33,784 bases of DNA from positions 1 to 33,784 of the forward strand of contig JAEUKJ010000156.1 in the NCBI GenBank assembly GCA_016792665.1. The letters run 5' to 3'. Positions 4,045 to 19,160 of the stretch are shown piece after piece. Numbering within the stretch: position 1 is the stretch's first letter; each line of letters starts with the position of its first letter. The notes below the pieces were generated by a model. That model did no database searches, was not told where the DNA came from, and saw only the letters and a list, made by a program, of their open reading frames with translations. Origin of the DNA: Deltaproteobacteria bacterium. GTDB taxonomy: Bacteria; Myxococcota_A; UBA9042; PHBI01. The translations under genes and the position numbers were made by a program.

Positions 4045-4051
4045 GGTTGGC

Positions 4052-4080
4052 CAATCGATCGCACGCCCGTCGCGCGATTG
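4052..4080. promoter_or_regulatory. Possible LysR operator dyad
   Basis: CAATCG (4052-4057) and CGATTG (4075-4080) form a perfect 6-base inverted repeat with a 17-base spacer. It sits inside the 65-base gap between the divergent LysR and GGDEF-EAL genes. LysR proteins commonly bind interrupted dyads in such gaps. The spacing differs from the classical T-N11-A box, so this is tentative. Confidence 0.3.
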
Positions 4081-4109
4081 CATCTCATACGTTAGGCTCA
4101 CGCGACGCC

Positions 4110-6251
4110 ATGCGCACGCCCATCAACGAGCACCCTTCCGGCTCACCATCGAACACGCCCGCCGAGTCGGCGCGCGTGACGACAGCTTCGGCCGAACGCA
4201 TCGCCCCGACCGATGAGGCCGCCGTGCACGCGCACCTGCGTCGCCTGTACAGCTCGGGCTGGTTCATCGGTCCCCTGGGAAACCTGGCCGCGGCCCTGAC
4301 CTTCTGGCTCACCAGCCAGCGCTTCTCGCAGGCGGCGACGCGTGGGCGCTTCGTGGGGTGGTTCGTCCTCGTCGGGCTCGCCGCAGTGATCGAGACCGCT
4401 GCCTTCGTCACCTCGCGTCGTGACCGACCGGGGGCCCGGGCGATCCCGCTGCTGGCGGTCATCGGGTACTTCACGGCTGGCGTTGGCTGGGGCGTCCTGC
4501 TCTGGCTCGACCTCGAGGCCGCGGCCGAGGGTCCTTATCTCTGGCTCTCGCTTGCCTTCCTCTTCGCGCTCACCGCGGGCGTCACCGGTGGCCTCATCGG
4601 CATCACCGAGCTCGGGTTGGCGGCGCTGGTGCCGATGTGGGGGCTGTCTTTCGGCGCGCTCCTGTTCATCGAGGAGTGGCTCGTCGCCGGCGCGGTCATC
4701 GTCTTCGTCGTCCTCGTGATCCCTCACCTCCTGCACACCAACAAGCTCGTCCTCGAGCTCGTCCAGCTCCGCGCGCGCACCGCCCGCCGCACCGCCGCGC
4801 TGGCTTGGGAGGCGCATCACGACGGCCTCACCGGGCTCAGCAACCGCAGCGCCTTGATGACCCGCATCGACGCACGCATCGACGCGGAAGAGGCCTCGGC
4901 CTGCCAGACCCTGACCGGCCTCTACGTCGATCTCGACCTCTTCAAAGAGGTCAACGACCGCCTCGGACACAAGGTCGGCGACGCCGTCCTGGTCGAGGTC
5001 GCCGATCGCCTGCGCCGCTCCTTCCCGAGCGACCTGGTCGCGCGTCTGGGCGGCGACGAGTTCTTCGTCCTCCTCGCCTCGAGCCCGTCGGCGACCGAGC
5101 TCGACGCGCTCGCGCGCCGCGCCATCAGCGCGATGGAAGAACCGATGACCATCGGCGCCGAGAACGTCCGCGTCTCGGCCAGCATCGGGGTGACCTCGCT
5201 CGCACGTGAGCACGCCACGGCCGAGATCCTCCTCGACCAGGCGGACTCGGCCCTCTACGAAGCCAAGCGCGCCGGCGGCGCCCACGCCGTCCGCTTCGAT
5301 CCGCACGTCCACGAGCACACCATGAGCGAGGTCGCGCTGGCCCGGACGCTCAGGCACGCGATCGCCGGTGGGCAGATCCGGGTCGAGGCCCAGCCGATCG
5401 TCGACCTCGCGGACGGTCGCACCGAGGGCTTCGAGCTGCTCGCCCGCTGGCGCCTCGACGATGGCACCGATGTGCCGCCGGCCGTCTTCCTGCCGCTGGC
5501 GGAGTCGCTCGGACTCGCCGCGGAGATCGACCGCCAGGTCCTGCGCACTGCCGCGACCACCCTGGCGCGCTGGGGCCGTGAGCCCGATCTCGCGGCCCTG
5601 TCCATCACCGTCAACATCGCGCCGACGGTGCGCGGCGAGAACGCGGAACACGTCCTCGCCGAGGTCCGCGCCTCCTTCGCCGACCTCGCCTTCGACCTTC
5701 GTCGCCTCACCCTCGACCTCGGCCGCGGTGACGCCCTGAGCCAGTCGCGCCACGCCTGCGAGGCGCTGCGCGGGCTCGGGGTCGACCTCGCCATCGACGA
5801 CTTCGGCGGTGGTGGCCCGTCACTGGTCCAGCTCGCCGAGCTCCCGGTGACCACGGTGAAGCTCGACCGCGCCATCATCGCGCCGCTCGGGTCCGATGCG
5901 CGTGCGGACAAGGCACTGGTCGCGCTGCGTGACATCGCCTCGGCCTTCTCGCTGCGGGTGATCGCCGAGGGCGTCGAGACCGAGGCCCAGCGGGCCCGCC
6001 TGCTCGCGCTCGGGATCCGTCGCGGTCAGGGCAACCTCTTGTGTCCGCCCCTGCCGATCGCCGAGGCCGAGAGATGGCTACGCGATCCGCAGAACGTCGT
6101 GCGGAACCGGGCCGCCGACGGACCCGACCAGGACCGAGAGGCACGTGAGGGAGCCGGCCGCCTTGGCGAGCTCGCTCATGCCCAGGACGACGGGCTCGAA
6201 GCCGGCGGCGGCAACCCGCGCAAGGGTCTCGGGATAGCCGCCGGACAGTAG
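4110..6251 (+). CDS. Membrane GGDEF-EAL protein (cyclic di-GMP turnover)
   Basis: This 713-residue inner-membrane protein joins a diguanylate cyclase and a c-di-GMP phosphodiesterase domain. About six transmembrane helices span residues 45-215. The GGDEF domain at about 230-395 carries an intact GGDEF motif (residues 314-318), so cyclase activity is plausible. The EAL domain at about 410-665 keeps ELLARW (Glu442), the Asn in ITVNIAP, DDFG (Asp563-Asp564), VKLDR and AEGVET (Glu620). The Glu of the usual LEIT motif reads Asp in LTLDLGRG, and the loop is Gly-rich (DDFGGGGPSL), so hydrolysis may be weak or lost. The start at 4110 is chosen over upstream starts that would overlap the LysR promoter. 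The last ~50 residues, from 6096 on, do not look like EAL and lie antisense to the 3' end of ddaH. Confidence 0.93.
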   Translation: MRTPINEHPSGSPSNTPAESARVTTASAERIAPTDEAAVHAHLRRLYSSGWFIGPLGNLAAALTFWLTSQRFSQAATRGRFVGWFVLVGLAAVIETAAFVTSRRDRPGARAIPLLAVIGYFTAGVGWGVLLWLDLEAAAEGPYLWLSLAFLFALTAGVTGGLIGITELGLAALVPMWGLSFGALLFIEEWLVAGAVIVFVVLVIPHLLHTNKLVLELVQLRARTARRTAALAWEAHHDGLTGLSNRSALMTRIDARIDAEEASACQTLTGLYVDLDLFKEVNDRLGHKVGDAVLVEVADRLRRSFPSDLVARLGGDEFFVLLASSPSATELDALARRAISAMEEPMTIGAENVRVSASIGVTSLAREHATAEILLDQADSALYEAKRAGGAHAVRFDPHVHEHTMSEVALARTLRHAIAGGQIRVEAQPIVDLADGRTEGFELLARWRLDDGTDVPPAVFLPLAESLGLAAEIDRQVLRTAATTLARWGREPDLAALSITVNIAPTVRGENAEHVLAEVRASFADLAFDLRRLTLDLGRGDALSQSRHACEALRGLGVDLAIDDFGGGGPSLVQLAELPVTTVKLDRAIIAPLGSDARADKALVALRDIASAFSLRVIAEGVETEAQRARLLALGIRRGQGNLLCPPLPIAEAERWLRDPQNVVRNRAADGPDQDREAREGAGRLGELAHAQDDGLEAGGGNPRKGLGIAAGQ

Positions 6252-7537: not shown

Positions 7538-10500
7538 TCAGTTCTCGGAGGCCCAATCGAAGGTCAGCGCGAGGCCGGCCTTGAGGTCGAGGCCGAGGTG
7601 CGGGCCGAAGCCCAACATGCTTCGCGGTCCCTTGTGAAGGAGCCAGTCGTAGCCGAGCTCCATGCGGTTCTGGCCGATGGTAACCGGCTGCGCCTCGAGC
7701 CAGATGCGGCTGCCCGGGAGGAAGCGCTGCATGTCGAAGAACTGGATCTTGCCGTAGTCCTCGGGGCGCTCCATCGACTCGGACCAGCCGTTCGCGCGGT
7801 CCATGAAGATGAGGTTGCGGAGGTTGGTCTGGATGAAGGTCAAGACCAGGCCTTGATCGACGTTGCCGAAGCGGACCGTCTCCGACGCGGGCACGTCGGG
7901 CAGGCCCCAGATGCGCGCGCGGCCGGTGTTGAGGAAGGTCGCCATGTCGAGGAGGTAGGGGCCGGAGACGCCGCCGAAGACCGTCTTCAGGCCCGCTTGC
8001 GGCGTGAAGTTGACGGAGATGGTGGCCAGCGGATCGCGATGCCCGACCGCGATGTCGCGCAGCGCGAGGTCGGAGGGCAGGACCGCGAACTCGAGCGCGG
8101 CCTTGGCCGTCTCGAGCCCGCCGTCGGCGGTGATGGCACCCTTCTTCAGGCGGAACTCGCGACCCATCGCACCCAGCAGCCCCTCGAGGACATCGATGCG
8201 CCCGTGCAGGTTCACCTGCTTGCCGACAATGGCGACATCCATGTCGCCTTTCAGCTTGATGTCGATCGGGATGTTGCCGGCCGAGACGCGAATAGGCTCG
8301 GGGATGTGCAGGTGGACGTCGAAGCCCGTCACAGGCGCCGGCGGCAGCGTCAGATCGGGCGCGGGGGGCAGCGCGTGGTCGGTCGGCGGGAGCATCGGCG
8401 CCTTGCCCGGCGGCAGGACGCCCGAGGGTCGATCGCGGTCGACGTAGACGACGTCGTCATAGGCCGGGAACTGCGGGTAGTGGGCGCGGATGAAGCGCTC
8501 GGGCGAGTCGAGGTCCATCGACTTCACGGTGACGTCGACCTGCTTGATGGGGTCGCCGAGCTTGGTGACGGCGACGTCCAGATCGAGGTCGAGCTCGGCC
8601 TCGGGCGTGTCGAAGCCGAGGCCCAGGACGAGCCAGTCCTTCAGCATGACGCGCAGCGCGGCGTCGGTCGGCTTGAGGTCGGTCCAGGCGACCTTGCCGC
8701 TCACATCGACCGTGCGGTCCTTGCGCTGCGGGTCTTCCTCGCGGAGGTGGATGGCCTTCAGCTCGAGGCCGGTCGGCGTGCTCTGGAGGACGACCTTGCC
8801 GTCTCGCAGGTGGCGATCGGTGTCGGGGACGTTGATGTCGAGGTCGCGAATCACGAGGTCACCCGTGACCGCGCTGCCCGGCAGGAGCCCGGGCTTGGCG
8901 GGGTCGCGTGAGCTGACGACGCGACCGTCCATCTTCCAGTCGAGGGTGCCCTTGAGCTCGAGGGGGCGGCCCGCGGTGAGCAGGGCCGGCATCACCCGCA
9001 GGAGGTCGACGGCATCGGCGCGCATGGCGAGGTCGATCGGCAGCGGCGCCGGCGTGGCGTTCGGGTCCTTCGGCTTGGCCAGGTCTTGGCGGGCGACCCC
9101 ACCGCGGATCGTGATCTCACGCGCGGCTCCGAGCGCCAGCCCCCCCTCGGCGCGCTCGGCGGTGGCATCGACCTCGAAGGCGACGCGGCCCGGCGTGCCC
9201 GCCACCGTGTCGAAGCCATCCCAGGCGAAGGCGCCCTTGGCCGTCGGCGTGGCGATCGTGCCGCCCAGCACCAGCGCACCGCCGGTCTTGCCAGGCAGCT
9301 CGGGCAGCTTGGCGACGCTGGACAGCGCCGTGCGCAGCTCGGAGAGCGCGTGCTCGACGAGGCGGACCTCGCCGGAGAGAGGCGTCGCCATGAGGCGCGC
9401 GCGGTCCTTGGCGAGGCGCCGGAGCCCCTTGCCGGGCAGCGCCAGGCGCGCGTCGACGGCGAGCACGTCCAGGCCGGCGACGGCGACGTTCTGGGTGAGG
9501 CGGGTGTCGGCGTCGGTGATCGTTAGATGGCCATCGAACTTTGCCGGCGGAGCCGTGCCGACCACGAGGTCGTTGCCGGTGAGATCGATCTGGCCGCGCA
9601 CGTCGTCGCCCTGGCCGGCGAGGGCCAGGTCGAACCCGAGCTTGCCGGCGAGCGCCTTCGATGCGAGCCCGAGGCCGTTGATGGCGGCGAGATCGATGCC
9701 GTTCGGTACGCGCATGGCCAGGGTCCAGGGCTTCGCGAGCGGATTCGGGAGGAGCGGCGAGCGGTCGAACGAGGCGGTCGTCTCGTGCTCGAGGAAGGGG
9801 CGCGCAGCCGAGTCGAGCCACAGCGACAGGGTCGAGGCGAGCGCGGTCGACCTGCCGTCGGGACGAAGCGACCCCTGGACCGTCACCTTCTGACGGGCGG
9901 GTGCCTGCTCGTAGCCCTTTCGGCGCAGGAAGCCGCCGTCGAGGCTCAGGTTCCAGGCGCCGGTCGGGCGCGCGGTCGAGCCGTGGATGTCGAGGTCGAA
10001 GGCGACCTTGCCGTCGGGGTCGACGATGGGCGGAGCCGGGTTGGGCGAGAGGGCGAGGAGGCGCCCGAGCGTGGTCTCGGGCAGGTTTGCCTTGATCGAG
10101 ACGCGGCCACCGGGGGCGAGGCCGGCTTTGTCGCCGGGGTGGTCGGGCAGGTGGATCGGGGCCATGAGGTCGAAGGTCAAGAGCGGCTTCTTGGCGCCGC
10201 GATCGGTGAGGCCGAGACGCAGGTCGAGGTTCTTGTCGCGCAGGTTCATGTCGACCTTGGCGGTGAACGGGGCGCCCTGCTTCATGCGACCGCGCAGGGT
10301 CAGGAGGGTCTCGACGGTCGGGTTCTGGGGCGTGCCCTGGACGTGCAGGGTGCCACCGAGCTTGCCAGAGAGGCCACGCGTCGAGCGCTTGGCGAGGGCG
10401 GCGAGGCGACCGAGGTCCAGGTTGTCGACGTCGAGGACGAGGTTGATGACGTCGAGCTTGTTGGCGCCGGGGTTGGCTTCGTCCTTCGAGAGCTGGGCCT

Positions 10501-12904
10501 GGAGGCCGAGGCCCAGGGTGCCGCCGACGAGGTTGAGCGTCATCGAGGGCAGGTGGATCTGCTGCTGCCCGGAGGGCTTGCCGTCGGCGCCCAGCGGCTG
10601 GTCGATGCCGATCGTGACCGGGTCCTTCAGCGAGGTCTGGAAGGACCCGCGCTTGGCGTCGAGCTTCGAGACGGTCACGTCGACGTGGCGCTTCTCGAGG
10701 TCGAGGACGCTCTTGGTGTGGAGGTCGACGGCGAGGTCCTGGGCGGCATCGCGGACCTTCAGGTCGAAGTCCTGCACGAGGCCGTCGAGCAGCACGCTGA
10801 GGTCGACCGAGTCGATCTTCATGGTGCCGGTGTCGATCTGCCCGAGCTGGGCCCGGACGGTGCCCTTGGGCTGTGGATTCGGCCCCTCGGGGAGGGTCAG
10901 GTCGAGGTCGATGTCCATCTTGCCGACGTCGCGACCCGCGGCCTTGATGTCCTTGCCCTTGATGTGGCCGGTGAGCTTCGCGGTCTCGAGCGGGACCCGC
11001 GAGAGGTCGAGGCGTCCGTTGACGAGCAGGCTCGGCGCGGAGGCGGGGACGGGCTCGACCCCGGCGGGGGCCTCGGCCCCGGGGGCGGGAGGCGGCTTCA
11101 GGCGGCCGCTGACCCCGAGGTCGACGTCGATGTCGCCGGAGACCGGGGGCAGCGCGGCGAGCAGCACGCCGGCATCGCGCGCCTTCTGGATGGCGTCGCC
11201 GATGGCGGAGGTCATGCGCACGGTGGCGGCGAACTCGCGCGTGCCGCGGTCGAAGTTGCCATAGACGGTGGCGGTCTGACCGAAGGCCTCGAGGACCAGG
11301 CCGTCGAGGGTGACGAGGTTGCCCTCGGTCGAGGCGTCGATGGTCACGCTGTCGAGGGAGCGGCCCTTGACCGTAGTCTTGCCGACCTCGACGTGAAGCT
11401 TGGCCTTGTGCGCAGGCGGGAGGCCGACGAGGTCGAGGACCGCCTTGAAGCCCGTCTGGAGGTCGGGCCGGGTCGGGCTCGCGAGGAGCAGCGTCGTGTC
11501 GATCTTGTCGCCGGTGAGCTCGAGGTGGATGACCGGCTTCAGCAGGTCGCTCACGTCGGCCGTGCCGCTCAAGCCGAGGTTGCCACCCGCGGTCGCGACC
11601 TGGCCCGCGATGACCATGCGCTCGGCCGGGCCCTTCACGCTGGCGTCGAAGGCGACGTCGGAGGCGAGGACCTCTTTGCCGAGGAGGGTGTTGATGCCGG
11701 CCTTGTCGAGCTTGGCACCGACGAGCTCGAGGAGGTGCTCGCCCGGGCCGACCTTGATCTCGCCCGCGGGCGGGAGGTGCCCCTCGGCGTGCACCTTCGC
11801 GAGCGACAAGGGTCCGGCCGCGAGCCCGGCGAAGTCCATCGTCGCGAACTGGGTCTTCGGGTCGAGGTGGGCGACGAGCTTGCCGATGGCGACCGGGACC
11901 TGGGTCGCGCGGCCCTTGAGAGTGAGTGAGGCCTCGGTCGCGGCGGGCTCGAGCGCGACGTCGACGGTGCCGTTGTCGACCTTCGCCGTGAGCGTCGCCG
12001 AGAGCGGCAGCACGAGGTGAAGGGCCTCGCCGCGCGTGAGGTCGAGGGTGGCGCCGAGCTTGGTGAGGGCCACGTCGACCTTGCCTGCGGGCTGGTCCAT
12101 GGCGAGTCGGCCGGCGACCACCACGTCGGTGAGCGCCAGGACGCTGCCGTCGGGGCGCTCGATGCGGACCTTCACGTCGTGGACGTCGAGGGCCTGGACG
12201 ACGATCTGCTCGGGGAGCTTGGTCGGCTCCTTCTGCATGCGCCGGAGGTTGTTCGTGCCGTCGGGGAAGGCGACGAGGTCGAGGGCCAGGCCTTCGACGA
12301 GCAGCTTCTCGATGGTCAGCGGCTTCGAGAGGAGGCTGCCCCAGTCGAGGTCGACGAGCGCGTGTGACAGATGCAGGACGGTCTTGCCGCCCTTCTCTTT
12401 GATGTCGAGATCGAAGAGCTCGACGTCGCCGCCGAGCGCGTAGTCGATCCGGCCGAGGGTCACCTCGCCATCGTACTTCTTGGCGAGGGCACCCTCGACG
12501 ATGCCGCGTGCGACGCTCTTGCCGGGACCGGTGTGGAAGAAGCCGATCGCCAGGCCGACGAGCAGGAGCAAGATCCCGAAGGTCCAGAGGACGCCCTTCA
12601 GGATGCGGCGCGGCAAGGACTTCCTGGGCTTGGTCGGCTTGCCCTCGGGCGGGGGCGAGAGGTCGTCCAGGACGATCTCGGACTCCGACTTCTCGAGGTA
12701 GGGGGCGGTCTTCTTCCTCCGCTTGGTCACCGGTCCGATGACCGCGTTCGGCTCCGACGGCTCCGACACGCCGCTGTCGGCGCGACCGCCACCGAGGACG
12801 TCGTCACTCATCGCGGGGACGGTGGTGGTCTTCGCGTCCTGCGCGACCACGCTCATGCCCGGCTCGGTCGCCTTCTTGATGTTCTTCGGGTCTTCAGTGG
12901 CCAT
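7538..12904 (-). CDS. tamB: TamB-family translocation and assembly module protein
   Basis: This 1788-residue AsmA/TamB-type protein is anchored in the inner membrane and spans the periplasm as a long beta-taco. Family members work with TamA-type barrels in outer-membrane protein insertion and/or lipid transport. One transmembrane helix lies at about residues 108-127 (GVLWTFGILLLLVGLAIGFF). It is followed by well over a thousand residues of repeating beta strands (LDLDIHGS, VDLDWGSL), and a C-terminal DUF490-like domain in which GLKTVFGGVSGPYLLDMATF and a final strand (LALTFDWASEN) can be picked out. E. coli TamB has about 1260 residues, so this is a long version. It has an unusual ~105-residue hydrophilic, probably cytoplasmic, N-terminal extension rich in Lys, Asp and Ser. 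Its ATG shares one base with the tamA stop (TGATG), indicating coupled translation. Confidence 0.9.
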   Translation of the reverse strand: MATEDPKNIKKATEPGMSVVAQDAKTTTVPAMSDDVLGGGRADSGVSEPSEPNAVIGPVTKRRKKTAPYLEKSESEIVLDDLSPPPEGKPTKPRKSLPRRILKGVLWTFGILLLLVGLAIGFFHTGPGKSVARGIVEGALAKKYDGEVTLGRIDYALGGDVELFDLDIKEKGGKTVLHLSHALVDLDWGSLLSKPLTIEKLLVEGLALDLVAFPDGTNNLRRMQKEPTKLPEQIVVQALDVHDVKVRIERPDGSVLALTDVVVAGRLAMDQPAGKVDVALTKLGATLDLTRGEALHLVLPLSATLTAKVDNGTVDVALEPAATEASLTLKGRATQVPVAIGKLVAHLDPKTQFATMDFAGLAAGPLSLAKVHAEGHLPPAGEIKVGPGEHLLELVGAKLDKAGINTLLGKEVLASDVAFDASVKGPAERMVIAGQVATAGGNLGLSGTADVSDLLKPVIHLELTGDKIDTTLLLASPTRPDLQTGFKAVLDLVGLPPAHKAKLHVEVGKTTVKGRSLDSVTIDASTEGNLVTLDGLVLEAFGQTATVYGNFDRGTREFAATVRMTSAIGDAIQKARDAGVLLAALPPVSGDIDVDLGVSGRLKPPPAPGAEAPAGVEPVPASAPSLLVNGRLDLSRVPLETAKLTGHIKGKDIKAAGRDVGKMDIDLDLTLPEGPNPQPKGTVRAQLGQIDTGTMKIDSVDLSVLLDGLVQDFDLKVRDAAQDLAVDLHTKSVLDLEKRHVDVTVSKLDAKRGSFQTSLKDPVTIGIDQPLGADGKPSGQQQIHLPSMTLNLVGGTLGLGLQAQLSKDEANPGANKLDVINLVLDVDNLDLGRLAALAKRSTRGLSGKLGGTLHVQGTPQNPTVETLLTLRGRMKQGAPFTAKVDMNLRDKNLDLRLGLTDRGAKKPLLTFDLMAPIHLPDHPGDKAGLAPGGRVSIKANLPETTLGRLLALSPNPAPPIVDPDGKVAFDLDIHGSTARPTGAWNLSLDGGFLRRKGYEQAPARQKVTVQGSLRPDGRSTALASTLSLWLDSAARPFLEHETTASFDRSPLLPNPLAKPWTLAMRVPNGIDLAAINGLGLASKALAGKLGFDLALAGQGDDVRGQIDLTGNDLVVGTAPPAKFDGHLTITDADTRLTQNVAVAGLDVLAVDARLALPGKGLRRLAKDRARLMATPLSGEVRLVEHALSELRTALSSVAKLPELPGKTGGALVLGGTIATPTAKGAFAWDGFDTVAGTPGRVAFEVDATAERAEGGLALGAAREITIRGGVARQDLAKPKDPNATPAPLPIDLAMRADAVDLLRVMPALLTAGRPLELKGTLDWKMDGRVVSSRDPAKPGLLPGSAVTGDLVIRDLDINVPDTDRHLRDGKVVLQSTPTGLELKAIHLREEDPQRKDRTVDVSGKVAWTDLKPTDAALRVMLKDWLVLGLGFDTPEAELDLDLDVAVTKLGDPIKQVDVTVKSMDLDSPERFIRAHYPQFPAYDDVVYVDRDRPSGVLPPGKAPMLPPTDHALPPAPDLTLPPAPVTGFDVHLHIPEPIRVSAGNIPIDIKLKGDMDVAIVGKQVNLHGRIDVLEGLLGAMGREFRLKKGAITADGGLETAKAALEFAVLPSDLALRDIAVGHRDPLATISVNFTPQAGLKTVFGGVSGPYLLDMATFLNTGRARIWGLPDVPASETVRFGNVDQGLVLTFIQTNLRNLIFMDRANGWSESMERPEDYGKIQFFDMQRFLPGSRIWLEAQPVTIGQNRMELGYDWLLHKGPRSMLGFGPHLGLDLKAGLALTFDWASEN

Positions 12905-14940
12905 CAGAATGCCTCCCCGATCCGAAGGAAGACCAGGGCCTGGTCGAGGTCGTCGTTGCCCGAGACCATCGCGTCGTCGGTGACGCGATAGGCGACATCC
13001 AGCGCGATCGGGATGTGCCAGAGGCGCACGCGCAGGCCGAGCCCGAAGGCCGCCTCGACCGCATCACCAAAGGGGTTCGCCCCCTGCCCCACCCCGCCGA
13101 CGTCCGCGAAAGCGACCACACCGAACTGCTTGCGGAAGGGCAGCCACCGGAAGTCGATGCCGCCCTCGAAGAGGCTGCTCGCGCCGATGGGCAGCGAGCG
13201 ACAGCGCGGGTTGCCGGCGGCGTCGTCGCCCGCGGCTCCACCACACCCGACCCCGTAGAGCGAGAGGCGCTGGGTCCCGAAGCCCCGCATGCCCCAGGCA
13301 CCGCCGCCGAAGAGACGCAGCCCGACGGGCACGCCGCCGGCGGCACCATCGCGGAGGCCCTTCACCCAGCCGGCCTGGGCGCGGAGGCCGATGCCCATGT
13401 CGGCGTTCAGCTTCAGGAAGAAGCGGAGGTCGAGCTCGCCCTTGAACCAGGTGTGATCGCCCACGGGCGCAAGCGCCGCGCGCAGGGCGACGAGGTGGCC
13501 GTCGATGGCCTCGACCCCGTCGTTGCGCGTGTCCCAGACGAGCGACGCGCGCGCCTCGCCGGCGAGCGAGCCCTTGCCGGGATCGGCAGGCTCGGCCACG
13601 TCGTCGAAGGCGGTCGCCAGGGCCCCGAGCCCGACGCCCGCGTCCCAGCGGAGGCGCGGCTCGAGGTCGAAGAAGAGACCCGTGTCGATGAGGGTGCGGA
13701 GCCCGAGGCCGACCGAGGCGGTGCGCCAGTGGAAGCCGGGGAAGAGCTGCTCGTCGAAGGCCAGGGCCAGGCGGAGGTCGCCGGTGCGGCCGATGGTGCC
13801 GGGGCGCAGCCACTCGAGGCGGGCCGAGCCGTAGACTCCGAGCGGCTCGTCGACGTCGCCGCGCCAGCGGATGCCGTAGCCGGCCTGCCCCTCGAAGGCG
13901 AGGTGGTTCAGCTCGCCGAGCGCGTTGCGGAAGAGGAGGCGGGTGCCGACGTAGGGGTCGAAGCGCTCGGGGTCGAGGTTCGCGCCGAGCTTCAGGCGGA
14001 CCTGGGTCGAGGGGGCTTCGGCGACCTCGATGCGCATGGCGAGGTCGGACGAGAGCGTGCGCGGCACGAGCTGTCCCTGCGCGTCGACCTGGGCCTGGGT
14101 GAGGACGCCGCCGGTGTCGGGGGGGATCCAGGTCTCGTAGGGCACGGCGCCCGCCTCGAACTCGGTGCCGACGCTGGGGAAGATGCGCGCGATGGCGAAG
14201 GCGCCGAGGTCCATCAGGTCGAGCTCGCGCTTGCGCAGGGTGTGGAGGTCGACCGGGTCTCCGACCTCGAAGCCGGCGCGGTCGAGGATGGCCTCTTTCG
14301 AGACGGCGTGGTTGCCGAAGACCTCGATCGAGCCGACCCGGGTCGCGGGCCCGTAGTCGACGAAGTAGACCCAGTCGACCTGCTTCGCGTCGCGGTCGAC
14401 GAAGGCGCGACTGTAGACCTCGGCCCGGAGGAAGCCGGCGTCACGCAGGTGGTCGGCCAGGAAGTGACGCTGCACGCGATAGGTCTGGAGGTCCACGCCG
14501 TCGCCGACATGGAACGGCAGGAGGTGGGTGAGCGCGGCTTCGTGACCGGGCGGCGCGTTCTTGATGGCGATCGAGCGGACCTTGTAGCGCGGCCCCTCGG
14601 TGAGCTTCCAGGTGATGGTGGCGCTCTGGTCGGGCTCGTCGAAGGTGACCTCGGCCTTCTGGACCGACACGTCGAAGTAACCGAAGTTCTTCCAGAAAGC
14701 GTCGATGCGGCGGCGGTCTTCGGCCTGGCGCCAGGGGTTGTAGGGCTGGCCCGGGATGAGGAAGGCGTCGGCGCGCACCGAGAGCAGCTGCATGAGCGGC
14801 TTGGGTGACAGCGTGATGTCGTCGGGGAAGACGACCTTCTTGACCGAGTACTTCGACTCGCCCGGGAGCTCCGGCTTGACGAAGGGCGAGCAAGCCGAAA
14901 GGGCCACGCTCGCGGCGAGGATCAGGGTGCGTAGGGTCAT
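12904..14940 (-). CDS. tamA: TamA-like Omp85 outer-membrane protein with lipoprotein signal
   Basis: This 678-residue Omp85-family protein helps insert proteins into the outer membrane together with TamB. After the signal, three POTRA-like modules can be read at about residues 30-110, 111-190 and 192-265 (RYKVRSIAIKN, ATRVGSIEVFGNHAVSKEAI). A barrel at about 330-678 contains the family L6 motif MRGF (in GGAWGMRGFGTQRL) and ends in Phe (LRIGEAF). The N-terminus is MTLRTLILAASVALSACSP, a perfect lipobox (LSAC, Cys17). Classical TamA has an ordinary signal peptide, so a lipidated TamL-like form is suggested. TamA proper has about 577 residues. The gene directly precedes tamB. A BamA assignment is less likely because only three POTRA modules are seen and tamB follows. 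Confidence 0.88.
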   Translation of the reverse strand: MTLRTLILAASVALSACSPFVKPELPGESKYSVKKVVFPDDITLSPKPLMQLLSVRADAFLIPGQPYNPWRQAEDRRRIDAFWKNFGYFDVSVQKAEVTFDEPDQSATITWKLTEGPRYKVRSIAIKNAPPGHEAALTHLLPFHVGDGVDLQTYRVQRHFLADHLRDAGFLRAEVYSRAFVDRDAKQVDWVYFVDYGPATRVGSIEVFGNHAVSKEAILDRAGFEVGDPVDLHTLRKRELDLMDLGAFAIARIFPSVGTEFEAGAVPYETWIPPDTGGVLTQAQVDAQGQLVPRTLSSDLAMRIEVAEAPSTQVRLKLGANLDPERFDPYVGTRLLFRNALGELNHLAFEGQAGYGIRWRGDVDEPLGVYGSARLEWLRPGTIGRTGDLRLALAFDEQLFPGFHWRTASVGLGLRTLIDTGLFFDLEPRLRWDAGVGLGALATAFDDVAEPADPGKGSLAGEARASLVWDTRNDGVEAIDGHLVALRAALAPVGDHTWFKGELDLRFFLKLNADMGIGLRAQAGWVKGLRDGAAGGVPVGLRLFGGGAWGMRGFGTQRLSLYGVGCGGAAGDDAAGNPRCRSLPIGASSLFEGGIDFRWLPFRKQFGVVAFADVGGVGQGANPFGDAVEAAFGLGLRVRLWHIPIALDVAYRVTDDAMVSGNDDLDQALVFLRIGEAF

Positions 14941-15044: not shown

Positions 15045-15392
15045 GTGCAAGACGAGTCGACGAAGCCTACGGCGGAGGCCTCGCCCTACAGGGCCGAGGA
15101 TCGCGAGCGTTGGCGGAGGCTCCTCCTCGCCAAGGGACAGGAGATCGCGAAGAAGTTGGAGGACGTGCTGGCCGGCAAGGACGTGAGGTTGGAGGACCTC
15201 GGCCTGCAGATGACCGACAAAGAGAAGGAGCCGAAGGACAAGAAGCTGAGGCGCTTCCTGGACTTGCTGATGGCGCGCCTGAAGTTGGTCGACGACCCGA
15301 GCTTCGGCTGGGACGCCGAGCGTGGTGCCTTCCTGCCCGTTGCCGCCCTGGATGAGATGCCGTGGATCGACCTCGAGCCGAGAGCGGGATGA
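15045..15392 (+). CDS. Small Lys/Glu-rich protein, unknown function
   Basis: The product has 115 residues, is hydrophilic, and shows no signal peptide, membrane segment or cysteine. Residues 20-85 look almost wholly helical and charged (ERWRRLLLAKGQEIAKKLED, then TDKEKEPKDKKLRRFLDLLM). The C-terminal piece has aromatic and acidic residues (FGWDAERG, EMPWIDLEP). The start is a GTG at 15045 with GAGGAG upstream at good spacing; an out-of-frame ATG two bases earlier soon hits a stop. The stop overlaps the ATG of the next gene in an ATGA junction, so the two products are likely made together and may interact. I do not recognise the family; by size and charge it could be an adaptor or a nucleic-acid-associated protein, but nothing proves that. 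Confidence 0.8.
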   Translation: MQDESTKPTAEASPYRAEDRERWRRLLLAKGQEIAKKLEDVLAGKDVRLEDLGLQMTDKEKEPKDKKLRRFLDLLMARLKLVDDPSFGWDAERGAFLPVAALDEMPWIDLEPRAG

Positions 15393-16519
15393 AGCGGTCC
15401 GCGGACGGCGTGCCGTGGGTGCCATGGTTGCACGGCGCGCTGTTCGCGGCGCTCTTGTCGGGTGGGACCGCGTGCGGGTCGAGCGCGCCCGAGACCCGGA
15501 CGGACGAGGTGGTGCCGGCGAGCGAGGAGGCCGTGGCCTGGTTCGGAGTGCGCGGCACAAAGTGTGACGCTGTGTTGCCGGCCCTGGGGCTGGCGGCGGC
15601 GCTGCGTGAGGGGGCTGTGTCGCCCTGGCGGGTCGCGGATGAGACGACGTGGTGCACGGTCGGGCCGACCGAGGCGGGGGCCAACCTGCGCATCGACTCG
15701 GTGGCGCAGCGCGTGAGCGCGTCGCTCGAGCGCGCGGCGATTGCCTTTTATGTCGCGCGCGGGGCGTGGAGCTACACGGTGTTCGAGGGAGGAGAGCCGG
15801 TCTTGAGCCTGGAGTCGCACCTCGGGCGGCCGCTCTTGTCGGGCGACGCGGTGCGGGGGGCGGCGATCCTCGGGGTCGAGCTGGCGGTCGTGAGTGGCAC
15901 GGCCGAGGCGGGGCAGGACCTGACGAAGCTCGGGCCGTTCGTGAAGCGGATCGGGGTGGCCGATCCCGGGGCCGACGCGCGCCGGGTCGAGGCGCGCACG
16001 GCGGCGGTGGCGGAGACGACGCGCACGGTCGAGCGGACGTTGTCGCGGATCCCGGCAGGCAGCTGGGCCGCGCTGCCGCCGCTGGGCGTCGTGTTGGTGA
16101 AGGCCGTCGAGCTGCGCAAGAAGGACGAGGAGGAGGTCCCGACGTACGTCATCGTCGACGACATGACGACGCTGGTGTTGCCCGTCGCGCGGGCCGAGGC
16201 GATGGGCATGCGTCCGGTCGCGTCGGTCGAGACCGCGAACAAGGTCTTGAAGCTCATCGACGATGGGGTCGACATCGACGACGCGACCTACGACGCGGGG
16301 CGGATGAAGCGCTGGCTCGATGCGATGCGCATCGGTGAGCTCGAGCGCATCGCGCAGGTCTTCGCGGGGCTCTGCGAGATCCAGGACAAGCGCAAGCTCG
16401 TGCAGGTCGAGGCCGGTCTCATGGAGACGAGCCGCGAGTGGTTGGCCGAAGAGATCGCAGCGGCCAAGCAGGTGCCGCTCGATGGGATCGACGCGAAGCT
16501 GCGCGACCTCTGCGACTGA
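15389..16519 (+). CDS. Exported-looking protein with C-terminal CarD/CdnL-like domain
   Basis: The product has 376 residues. The N-terminus has two basic residues and a hydrophobic stretch (PWLHGALFAALLSGGTACGS), which looks like a Sec signal ending in a poor lipobox (Gly at -3). Residues 49-225 form a domain I cannot name (AWFGVRGTKCDAVLPALGLA). Residues 226-376 resemble the full CarD/CdnL unit. A beta part (LGVVLVKAVEL, TYVIVDDMTTLVLPVARAEA, MGMRPVASVETANKVLKLI) is like the RNA-polymerase-interacting domain, and a helical tail follows (LERIAQVFAGL, SREWLAEEIAAA). CarD proteins bind RNA polymerase beta and promoter DNA in the cytoplasm, which conflicts with export. The conserved CarD tryptophan is not at its expected place. 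The gene starts in a 4-base ATGA overlap with its upstream neighbour; codons 1-48 keep strongly G/C third positions, supporting the early start. Confidence 0.8.
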   Translation: MKRSADGVPWVPWLHGALFAALLSGGTACGSSAPETRTDEVVPASEEAVAWFGVRGTKCDAVLPALGLAAALREGAVSPWRVADETTWCTVGPTEAGANLRIDSVAQRVSASLERAAIAFYVARGAWSYTVFEGGEPVLSLESHLGRPLLSGDAVRGAAILGVELAVVSGTAEAGQDLTKLGPFVKRIGVADPGADARRVEARTAAVAETTRTVERTLSRIPAGSWAALPPLGVVLVKAVELRKKDEEEVPTYVIVDDMTTLVLPVARAEAMGMRPVASVETANKVLKLIDDGVDIDDATYDAGRMKRWLDAMRIGELERIAQVFAGLCEIQDKRKLVQVEAGLMETSREWLAEEIAAAKQVPLDGIDAKLRDLCD

Positions 16520-16634: not shown

Positions 16635-18092
16635 ATGTCGAAGATCGTCATCCTGACGTTGACGCTGGTCGCGTGCGCGCCGCGCTCCGAGTCGAGCGAG
16701 GCCCGACGCGAGGAACCTCCGACCTACCCCGACGACCAGATCGTCGCGGCCGCGCTCCAGAGCACGCGCGCCCTGACCCTCGAGAAAGAGGTCGCGCTCG
16801 ATCCGCCCGAGGTCCGCGGTTGGCGGACGCTGGGCGACCTGGCGCGTGACGCGAAGTGGGAACTCGCGAGCTGCACGACCGATGAGTGCGCCGGATTGAC
16901 GACGCGCCTGAGCGTGCCCGTCGCCGCCAAGGACCCTCTGGAGCTCACGCCGCATCGTCCCTACGGGTCGCCGTTCGTCGAGGTGCGGCTGCTGTCGGTC
17001 GACCTCCCCAAGCGCTGCGATTGGGTGCTGGTGGCCCGATCGAAAGACGGGTGGTTTGGACCGCTCGAGCTCGGTTCGTCGGCTCATGGATGTACGCGTC
17101 CGGTCGACCTCGTGCTCGTCGACGAGCTCGCGCCGCTATGGTTTCCGATCGCCACCCAGGCGCTCGACGGTGGTCTGCGCCTGGAGGGTCAGGGGGCGAC
17201 CGAGGCGGGGTCGATGGACCTCGCGGGGTCGACGGGGCTCACGCGGGTGACGTACCTCTGTCGCGTCGGGGCGGCGGGACCGGACACGCTCGCGTGCGCG
17301 CGGGAAGAGGTCGTCGTGACGCCGGAGGTCACGTGGAAGTCGCTCGGCGAGGCTCGGCCCATCGCTCCGAGCTCGCCCTCGATGGCACCCGGCGACCTCG
17401 CGTCCGTCGGCGCGACGAAGGAAGCGTATTGGATCCTCGGCATGGCGCCGACCGAGGTCTTGCCGAGCTGGATGACCGCATCGGTGTGCCACGTGGAGAC
17501 GGCGCTGGATCGGGACGAGCCGGTCGTCGTGACCTCGCGAGCGACGGGCTACTCGGTCAACTCCATCCGCGCGGGCCGCGCCCGCAAGCGCCTCTCCGTC
17601 TATGCGGACTACGCCAACGAGACGCTGGCGGTGCGGCGGGTCGAGCGCGTCGGCGACAGCGTCGTCGTCGCGGCCGAGCGCGTCGTCCAGGGGCCGGCGC
17701 AGGTCACGACCCGATGGGTAGACATCGTGAGAGTGGACCGGCGCTTTCGGCTCGCGACCGGGGTCACGCTCGAGGTGGGCGGCGAGCGGGTCGGCGGGTG
17801 GGAACGCGAGGTGGTGGTCGAGCCGGACGGCGTGCGCTTGTCGTCACGCGACGGGGCGCTGGCGTGGTTTCGCGGCACCGGGCGCTTCACGTGGGCCGAG
17901 CTGGAGCGGCAGATCCCGCGCTGGCAGAAGGCCTTTGGACGCGCCTGGGAAGCGAGCTTGCGCGACCCCGCAACGCGCAGGAAGAAGGCCGGCGATCGCG
18001 AAGAGATCGGAACCACGGTCGCGCTGCGGATGGTGCCCGGATTCATCGAGCCACTCGACGACGCGGTCATCGACGACGTGGCCACCGACTGA
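16635..18092 (+). CDS. Lipoprotein of unknown function
   Basis: The product has 485 residues. It begins MSKIVILTLTLVACAP with a perfect lipobox (LVAC, Cys14), so it should be lipidated and membrane-anchored. The ATG at 16635 has GAGGGG upstream. The mature chain has scattered Cys residues that could form disulfides (Cys in SCTTDECAG, KRCDWVLV, AHGCTRP, TYLCRVG, LACAREE, ASVCHVE). The second half is rich in predicted beta strands (FRLATGVTLEVGGERVGGWE). I recognise no domain. It lies 115 bases after the CarD-like gene on the same strand and ends 18 bases from the convergent phhA, so it could be the last gene of that unit or stand alone. Confidence 0.8.
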   Translation: MSKIVILTLTLVACAPRSESSEARREEPPTYPDDQIVAAALQSTRALTLEKEVALDPPEVRGWRTLGDLARDAKWELASCTTDECAGLTTRLSVPVAAKDPLELTPHRPYGSPFVEVRLLSVDLPKRCDWVLVARSKDGWFGPLELGSSAHGCTRPVDLVLVDELAPLWFPIATQALDGGLRLEGQGATEAGSMDLAGSTGLTRVTYLCRVGAAGPDTLACAREEVVVTPEVTWKSLGEARPIAPSSPSMAPGDLASVGATKEAYWILGMAPTEVLPSWMTASVCHVETALDRDEPVVVTSRATGYSVNSIRAGRARKRLSVYADYANETLAVRRVERVGDSVVVAAERVVQGPAQVTTRWVDIVRVDRRFRLATGVTLEVGGERVGGWEREVVVEPDGVRLSSRDGALAWFRGTGRFTWAELERQIPRWQKAFGRAWEASLRDPATRRKKAGDREEIGTTVALRMVPGFIEPLDDAVIDDVATD

Positions 18093-18110: not shown

Positions 18111-19028
18111 TCAGGCCGCGACCTTGCGGACGCGACGCAGCTCGAGCAGCTTCTTCGCGTATCGGTTCATCGCGTCGGCGAGCTGCTCGAAGCTGTCGAG
18201 CACGTAGAGGATCGGCTGGTAGTGATGGATCTCGAACGCCGTGTCGCACACGCGCTCGAGGTCGAAGGGGCGCCGGTCGACCTCGGGCGAGACCAGCGCA
18301 TGATGCCCCTCGCCCTCGCTCGAGATGAGGCCCGAGCCGTAGAGCTTCAAGCGCCCGTCCTCGTGGATGAGACCGAACTCGACCGTGAACCAGAACAAGC
18401 GCGCGAGCCGCTCCGTGTGGACCGGGTCGTCGGTCGTGAGCGCGGCCTGCCCATAGATCTGGAGGAACTCTGCGAAGCTCGGGTCCGTGTGCAGCGGCAC
18501 GTGCCCAAAGACGTCGTGGATGATGTCGGGCTCGGGCAGATAGTCCATCTGCGACTTCGGCCGCACCGTGATGGTCGTCGGGAACTGACGCTTCGCGAGG
18601 AACGCGAAGAAACACCGCGCAGGGATATAGCCCGGCACGGCATGCGACGACCAACCGGTCATCGGCGTGAGCAGTGCGTTGACCTCACCCAGACGCGGCA
18701 CCTCGTCCCGCGACAGCGCGATGGCTTCGGCCCCGCGCAGGAACACGCGCGACCCCGAGTGCTCGAGCTGCGCCATCCGCTTGTCGAAGATGGTCCGCCA
18801 CACCTCGTGATCTTCGGCGGTGTAGCGATCCCAGTGCTGAGCGATCTTCATCGCGTCGATGTCGAGCCGCTCCGCCGGGTACTCGGCCTGGGCGTTGGCG
18901 GCCTCCAGCGCGCGACGCGCCTCGTCCGACGCGATGACCGCCGACTGCAAGGCCCCCGTCCCGCTCATCTCGGTAGAGCCCATCGCGGGGTGAGTGTCGC
19001 GTCGGTGGGATCCAGACTTCGGGTTCAT
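18111..19028 (-). CDS. phhA: Phenylalanine 4-monooxygenase
   Basis: This 305-residue iron- and tetrahydropterin-dependent hydroxylase converts phenylalanine to tyrosine in the cytoplasm. The two-His-one-Glu iron site is visible: His171 and His176 in DIIHDVFGHVPL and Glu217 in TVEFGLIHEDG. The pterin and substrate regions (TGWSSHAVPGYIPARCFF, LYGSGLISSEGE) also match the aromatic amino acid hydroxylase family. The length suits bacterial enzymes, which lack the regulatory ACT domain; about 45 N-terminal residues are variable. I chose the ATG at 19028 because GGAGAGGTGG precedes it. An earlier in-frame start at 19097 would add 23 unlikely residues. No pterin recycling gene (phhB) is visible nearby. 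The tryptophan hydroxylase branch is possible but less common in bacteria. Confidence 0.95.
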   Translation of the reverse strand: MNPKSGSHRRDTHPAMGSTEMSGTGALQSAVIASDEARRALEAANAQAEYPAERLDIDAMKIAQHWDRYTAEDHEVWRTIFDKRMAQLEHSGSRVFLRGAEAIALSRDEVPRLGEVNALLTPMTGWSSHAVPGYIPARCFFAFLAKRQFPTTITVRPKSQMDYLPEPDIIHDVFGHVPLHTDPSFAEFLQIYGQAALTTDDPVHTERLARLFWFTVEFGLIHEDGRLKLYGSGLISSEGEGHHALVSPEVDRRPFDLERVCDTAFEIHHYQPILYVLDSFEQLADAMNRYAKKLLELRRVRKVAA

Positions 19029-19050
19029 GGCCACCTCTCCATGGGGAGAC

Positions 19051-19079
19051 GCCCTAGCAACAGCGCGGCCCAATGTCAC
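19051..19079 (-). promoter_or_regulatory. Possible promoter for phhA
   Basis: On the minus strand GTGACA (19079-19074) and TAGGGC (19056-19051) stand 17 bases apart, about 25 bases upstream of the phhA start. The -35 matches at 5 of 6 positions. The -10 is poor by the E. coli standard, so the call is tentative. Confidence 0.28.
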
Positions 19080-19160
19080 GCGCAAGCAGGCCGCCAAACG
19101 GTACGCGCCAAGCCGCGTCGAGTCACCCGCGCAAACCGCCGCGTCCGATGACGCGCCGCG

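Follow-up and report, generated by a model that had tools for sequence, protein, structure and literature searches.

The gene at 15389..16519 (+) of the window, the whole stretch of 33,784 nucleotides that was analysed, encodes a predicted lipoprotein of 376 residues, which by homology and by fold is a member of the CarD/CdnL (CarD_CdnL_TRCF) family. The sequence evidence described below suggests that a CdnL-type fold has been relocated to the periplasm, where a lipid anchor holds it, and that the protein is no longer an RNA polymerase factor. We assign this reading a probability of about 0.8. From N- to C-terminus the protein would comprise a Sec signal, the lipid-modified Cys29, an alpha/beta domain specific to the lineage (residues 48-190) and, after a short linker, the CdnL-type unit (residues 223-376).

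The gene and its orthologues

The ORF runs from an ATG at 15389 to position 16519. GC content at codon positions 1/2/3 is 71/51/93%, and GC3 stays at about 91-96% in each part of the protein: the codon-position bias claimed by the initial annotation is strong throughout 15389-16519. Genome search revealed two orthologues (39% and 33% identity), encoded in the same frame, one in each of two further genera of the family. These three genes are all that are known, and each comes from a draft or metagenome assembly. The three-way protein alignment has 83 invariant positions. The same-frame orthologues, the conserved positions and the codon bias show that the gene is real and mark the long antisense ORFs as shadows.

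The presence of these antisense ORFs and the fragmented state of the source genome (a draft of 789 contigs) could raise the suspicion that the architecture is an artefact of a wrong frame, a chimeric contig or chance resemblance. The orthologues already refute this explanation: three separate genomes, each from a different genus, share the architecture, the frame and the neighbours. In addition, the fold match to CarD is far above chance.

A complete CarD/CdnL unit at the C-terminus

The C-terminal part of the protein comprises a CarD RID-like beta module (residues 223-278, 16055..16222, +), identified by phmmer, Foldseek and HHalign, and a CarD_C helical domain (residues 280-376, 16226..16516, +), identified by Pfam, phmmer and Foldseek. 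Pfam CarD_C (PF21095) matched the window protein with E=1e-7 and 32.3 bits (cut-off 23.1), and all three CarD lipoproteins scored above the curated cut-off of this model. The Pfam RID model (PF02559) did not match the window protein; phmmer, Foldseek and HHalign do cover the RID. The closest PDB sequence found by phmmer was 2lwj, Myxococcus xanthus CdnL (E=5.7e-8, residues 223-373). When the three RID segments were compared by HHalign with 65 ordinary CarD proteins, the probability was 96.5 (E=8.7e-10); in 30 column shuffles it was at most 1.3. For the whole CarD unit the HHalign probability was 99.2.

A model of the protein was built with template-free AlphaFold2 from a three-row alignment (mean pLDDT 72; CarD unit mostly 70-94). 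Its best PDB matches in Foldseek were 4l5g (E=1.3e-9, TM 0.81), 8hvr (TM 0.84) and 6edt (TM 0.84), and the match to CarD structures spanned about 157 columns, i.e. both subdomains. The complete CarD/CdnL unit that had been proposed at residues ~226-376 was thus recovered, at 223-376, by Pfam, phmmer, the model with Foldseek, and HHalign. The fold match to CarD proposed as its structural check was obtained as well, with TM values of up to 0.84 and the RID probability given above.

Predicted export signal and start codon

The N-terminus of the window protein (MKRSADGVPWVPWLHGALFAALLSGGTAC) has K/R residues followed by a hydrophobic stretch and Cys29, and it fits the PROSITE lipoprotein pattern PS51257 together with its rules. 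The predicted Sec signal peptide comprises residues 1-28 (15389..15472, +), with equivalent signals in both orthologues, and the predicted lipid-modified residue is Cys29 (15473..15475, +), followed by Gly at +2. N-terminal charge, hydrophobic segment and lipobox Cys satisfied PS51257 in all three CarD lipoproteins, in the orthologues with VALLVGVLGGC and AMVAIMGVAGC. Shuffled versions of the same N-termini satisfied the pattern in 0.7-1.6% of trials (0.7% for the window protein). The Sec-like signal and weak lipobox of the initial annotation are therefore borne out by PS51257, with the qualification that the lipobox is weak, having G at -3, in the window protein only; the orthologue lipoboxes (LGGC, VAGC) are good.

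The residue at +2 is Gly, Ala and Gly in the three proteins, and Asp in none. By the Escherichia coli sorting rule, the non-Asp residues suggest that the proteins reach the outer membrane.

The start codon overlaps the stop codon of a small upstream gene (15045..15392, +; 115 aa) in the 4-bp sequence ATGA (15389..15392, +). The two orthologues have an in-frame GTG at this place, sharing bases with the stop codon of their copy of the small gene (GTGA), so that the motif RTGA is present in 3/3. The overlap pins the start codon to a site ahead of the signal, which is almost certainly translated, and the arrangement suggests translational coupling of the two genes. We also considered an internal start that would yield a cytoplasmic CarD protein; no in-frame start shortly before the CarD unit is common to the three orthologues. 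Aligning the orthologues, as had been proposed, showed that the signal is kept in 3/3, and no orthologue begins near residue 49.

These observations bear on the view that the N-terminal segment is no working signal, and that the protein is a divergent second CdnL acting on RNA polymerase in the cytoplasm or anchored at the inner face of the membrane. CarD-type proteins with long N-terminal extensions do exist in the phylum, but those extensions are basic tails without signals. Retention of the lipobox and the charged N-terminus in all three proteins, with better lipoboxes in the orthologues, also argues against a non-functional segment. Even an uncleaved segment would offer no escape: by the topology rules, an uncleaved N-in hydrophobic segment places the downstream part of the protein, here the CarD unit, in the periplasm.

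Residues lost, kept and gained

The three exported proteins were aligned with 64 ordinary CarD/CdnL proteins of the phylum. The wedge position (W88 of M. xanthus CdnL, W86 of Thermus CarD) is occupied by Trp throughout the ordinary set (64/64) and by Tyr in each of the exported three (Tyr301 in the window protein, 16289..16291, +). Three further positions that are invariant in the ordinary set are changed: N89 to D/D/H, R90 to A/E/E and S124 to V/Y/Y. F125, found in 60/64 ordinary proteins, is replaced by Q/S/A, R128 by A/A/D and K129 by G. R91 is kept, and R93 is kept as K/R/R. Among the polymerase contact positions P51 is kept, F36 is changed to T/T/C and M49 to V/R/S, two positions that vary even among the ordinary proteins (43/64 and 46/64, respectively). 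Residues of the fold are retained, including G8, G17, R61, G102, L123, E127 and E141, among others. In these alignments the CarD scaffold is preserved, and most of the predicted nucleic-acid face is gone.

The functional weight of these positions is known from other members of the family. The wedge residue W86 of Thermus CarD occupies the minor groove at the transcription bubble's edge, and its equivalent is conserved in >95% of CarD proteins (PMC4593161). In M. xanthus the basic patch R90/R91/R93 is required in vivo, and F36, M49 and P51 are polymerase contacts that were tested by mutation (PMC4182748). The wedge Trp is absent from the exported three, and the basic patch is incomplete, R90 being lost in 3/3. 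Judged by its defining functional residues, as predicted from the alignment, the window protein fails membership as an RNA polymerase factor. Some nucleic-acid binding is possible, since R91 and R93 are kept and a Tyr at the wedge position of Thermus CarD leaves partial activity (PMC4593161).

Four cysteines are invariant in the three orthologues. Cys59 (15563..15565, +) and Cys89 (15653..15655, +) lie in the middle domain; Cys329 (16373..16375, +), in the CarD_C domain, and Cys375 (16511..16513, +), at its end, are new relative to ordinary CarD proteins. These invariant pairs, if they form the putative disulfides, fit an oxidising compartment.

For a polymerase-bound, cytoplasmic protein speaks the presence of a whole CarD unit, including R91, R93 and P51. 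Against it, the wedge Trp, Arg90, Arg128, Lys129, Phe36 and Met49 are lost in 3/3, and together with the conserved signals this makes the cytoplasmic explanation quite improbable. The initial annotation had left two alternatives: either a CarD fold had been co-opted to serve in the envelope, or the N-terminal residues were not used as a signal. The invariant new cysteines and the loss of DNA-facing residues favour the former, and the latter is at odds with the signals kept in the orthologues; location and function are themselves what we infer.

The middle domain

Residues 48-190 (15530..15958, +) are predicted with confidence to form a small alpha/beta domain (pLDDT 81, pTM 0.80). Identity among the three proteins is about 34-38% in this region, with many invariant residues, e.g. 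G.W....F..G.PV...ESH. The domain had no match in Pfam or among PDB sequences, and a fold search of the PDB gave no match with E below 0.001. A profile search of 189 genomes of the phylum detected no convincing relative outside the three proteins; four weak matches were judged on inspection to resemble a shadow ORF or brief stretches aligned by chance.

A better match to the full protein, in genome G216, proved to be an ordinary CdnL encoded downstream of an ECF sigma/anti-sigma pair. Its extra score, about 7 bits, was due to a 29-residue likeness between the C-terminal end of the anti-sigma factor and the middle domain, a stretch too short to support a claim. In this locus (L127:607-2262) the CdnL gene lies directly downstream of the genes for the ECF sigma factor and a zf-HC2 anti-sigma factor, and it is the end of the latter (SYAVFRDGDLVYALVSDLPETALVGLA) that bears the faint likeness to the middle domain of the CarD lipoprotein.

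Conservation of the middle domain, with its many invariant residues, would suit a different explanation, in which the protein is an exported lipoprotein whose middle domain does the work, the CarD unit is a mere structural remnant, and the neighbouring genes described below are incidental. The fast evolution of the CarD unit points in the same direction. A remnant would not be expected, however, to keep its full length and both subdomains and to carry an invariant new Cys pair in three genera. We regard this explanation as unlikely, and prefer the one in which the CarD unit is a functional part of the exported protein.

Distribution and phylogeny

A profile of the whole CarD lipoprotein, run over 379 genomes of the phylum, found full-length members only in three genomes of one family. 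The phylum is taken to be Myxococcota, given the CdnL match and the occurrence of genomes larger than 13 Mb. In the GTDB species-genome collection (84,980 species), scanning by sequence pattern, which works best for close relatives, returned only the two orthologue contigs, one from a MAG named 'Deltaproteobacteria bacterium' and the other from a MAG of an uncultured bacterium. A plasmid search for the CarD lipoprotein gave no match.

Ordinary CarD proteins are present in 282/379 genomes of the phylum. A search for other exported CarD proteins among them (64 typical proteins and 23 low-scoring or extra-copy loci inspected) found a signal in none; these copies begin at or near the domain, or bear basic Lys/Ala-rich N-terminal tails. 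In four loci (L129, L131, L132 and L135) the CarD-type proteins have long, histone-H1-like tails rich in Lys, Ala and Pro, of up to ~380 residues before the CarD unit in stop-to-stop frames.

The window genome also encodes an ordinary CdnL of 211 aa (L002:21-656:-), which has both Pfam domains and lacks a signal, and a second, ordinary CdnL copy is present in the orthologue genome G002. In the other orthologue genome, G001 (~90% complete), no ordinary CdnL was found, the lipoprotein being the sole CarD_C match; perhaps this reflects the incompleteness of the assembly. In the phylogenetic tree the exported CarD proteins form one long-branched clade with 100/100 support. Such long branches are as expected after a change of function; the tree leaves the origin of the clade within the CarD family unplaced.

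Gene neighbourhood

Divergently from the small gene and the CarD lipoprotein gene lies a gene for a lipidated, TamA-like Omp85 protein with POTRA repeats (12904..14940, -; Pfam Omp85 and POTRA), followed by one for a TamB-like protein of 1788 aa (7538..12904, -; Pfam TamB). This arrangement, TamB - TamA / small gene - CarD lipoprotein, is conserved in 3/3 genera. In each of them the TamA-like protein starts with a lipobox signal: ILAASVALSAC in the window, and similar sequences in the L109 and L110 orthologues. TamL, a TamA-like Omp85 lipoprotein, has been reported almost exclusively from Bacteroidetes/Chlorobi (PMC4494059). The TamA-like protein of the window appears to be a TamL-like, lipidated TamA outside these phyla.

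Based on this conserved gene block, the machinery of the translocation and assembly module of the outer membrane (TAM; lipidated TamA plus TamB) is the likeliest candidate for the partner of the CarD lipoprotein, a possible association with the odds somewhat against it. The 115-aa family of the small gene has no Pfam match and occurs in several families of the phylum, more widely than the CarD lipoprotein; in the loci read elsewhere it lies away from TAM, and so by itself it is no pointer to TAM. In several other genomes it adjoins a gene that, going by sequence alone, is Clp ATPase-like (MLSLELEIAIQVA...). For these reasons the upstream gene was discarded as a functional clue.

Beyond the block, the genes shared are those for a phenylalanine hydroxylase and one other protein, and they are shared with only one of the two orthologue genomes. 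The former is a biopterin-dependent aromatic amino acid hydroxylase of the phenylalanine hydroxylase type (18111-19097, -), which is beside the CarD lipoprotein in G002 too (73% identity). Directly downstream of the CarD lipoprotein gene lies that of a second putative lipoprotein of 485 aa (MSKIVILTLTLVAC; 16635-18092, +), which has no Pfam match and was not found beside the CarD lipoprotein orthologues. The window also encodes a GGDEF-EAL protein of c-di-GMP turnover (4047-6251, +) and a 1869-aa protein with two stretches of MopE-type metal-binding motifs (PF11617; 27720-33329, +).

Discussion

To our knowledge, every characterised CarD-type protein acts on RNA polymerase inside the cell. A search of the open-access literature (CarD/CdnL with lipoprotein, signal peptide or periplasm) found no exported CarD; the one passing match was a proteomics list.

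The closest known relative, M. xanthus CdnL (2lwj), shares the two-domain fold over residues 223-373, the same helical CarD_C domain, and the equivalents of P51, R91 and R93. It is, however, a cytoplasmic protein of ~165 aa that lacks a signal and has W88, R90, F125, R128, K129, F36 and M49, whereas the window protein is a predicted exported lipoprotein with an extra domain and without those residues. The CarD proteins of M. tuberculosis and Thermus (6edt_M, 4l5g) resemble the window protein in fold (TM 0.81-0.84 by target length). They differ in using a Trp wedge in the minor groove to stabilise the open promoter complex (PMC4593161), where the window protein has Tyr and has lost most of the surrounding patch. 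M. xanthus CarD also belongs to the family and likewise has an accessory region next to the RID; its N-terminal domain binds RNA polymerase and CarG, and another part binds DNA (PMC4374960). The window protein differs from it in having a signal and a helical domain of the CdnL type.

We propose that the family ancestor acquired this architecture by fusion, a duplicated CdnL-type gene being placed downstream of an exported domain, and that the fused copy subsequently lost its function in transcription. The fold and the RID scaffold would have been retained, most DNA-contacting residues and two of the three polymerase contact positions lost, and the cysteine pairs gained, the cytoplasmic role of CdnL being supplied by the separate ordinary gene. 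After Sec export and lipid anchoring at Cys29, the middle domain and the CarD unit would be displayed in the periplasm. There the CarD unit would most likely serve as a protein-binding module, its RID edge strand gripping a partner as ordinary CarD grips the beta lobe of the polymerase, and the helical domain would act as a scaffold held by a Cys329-Cys375 disulfide. More tentatively still, and with real doubt, the CarD fold may be a lipid-anchored, disulfide-locked periplasmic TAM subunit, whose RID reads an edge strand of a POTRA or TamB repeat in the way it once read the beta lobe of the polymerase.

The TamL/TamB pair of Bacteroidetes/Chlorobi resembles the divergent neighbours in the window, a lipidated TamA-like protein and TamB, but the parts of the source consulted mention no CarD-fold partner of TamL (PMC4494059). 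There is also an analogy of role. BAM, an Omp85 machine, is served by the small accessory lipoproteins BamB-E. The CarD lipoprotein might play a comparable part; we found no sequence or fold relation to BamB-E and do not claim membership.

If the proposed reading is true, the protein clearly exemplifies how a transcription-factor fold can be put to new use in the envelope, and the exported family would allow a direct test of which region of the CarD scaffold works as a general module for binding. A practical caution is that the label 'CarD family transcriptional regulator' would mislead when given to such proteins on a Pfam match alone. Should the link to TAM be true too, the CarD lipoprotein would be a new component of an outer-membrane assembly machine.
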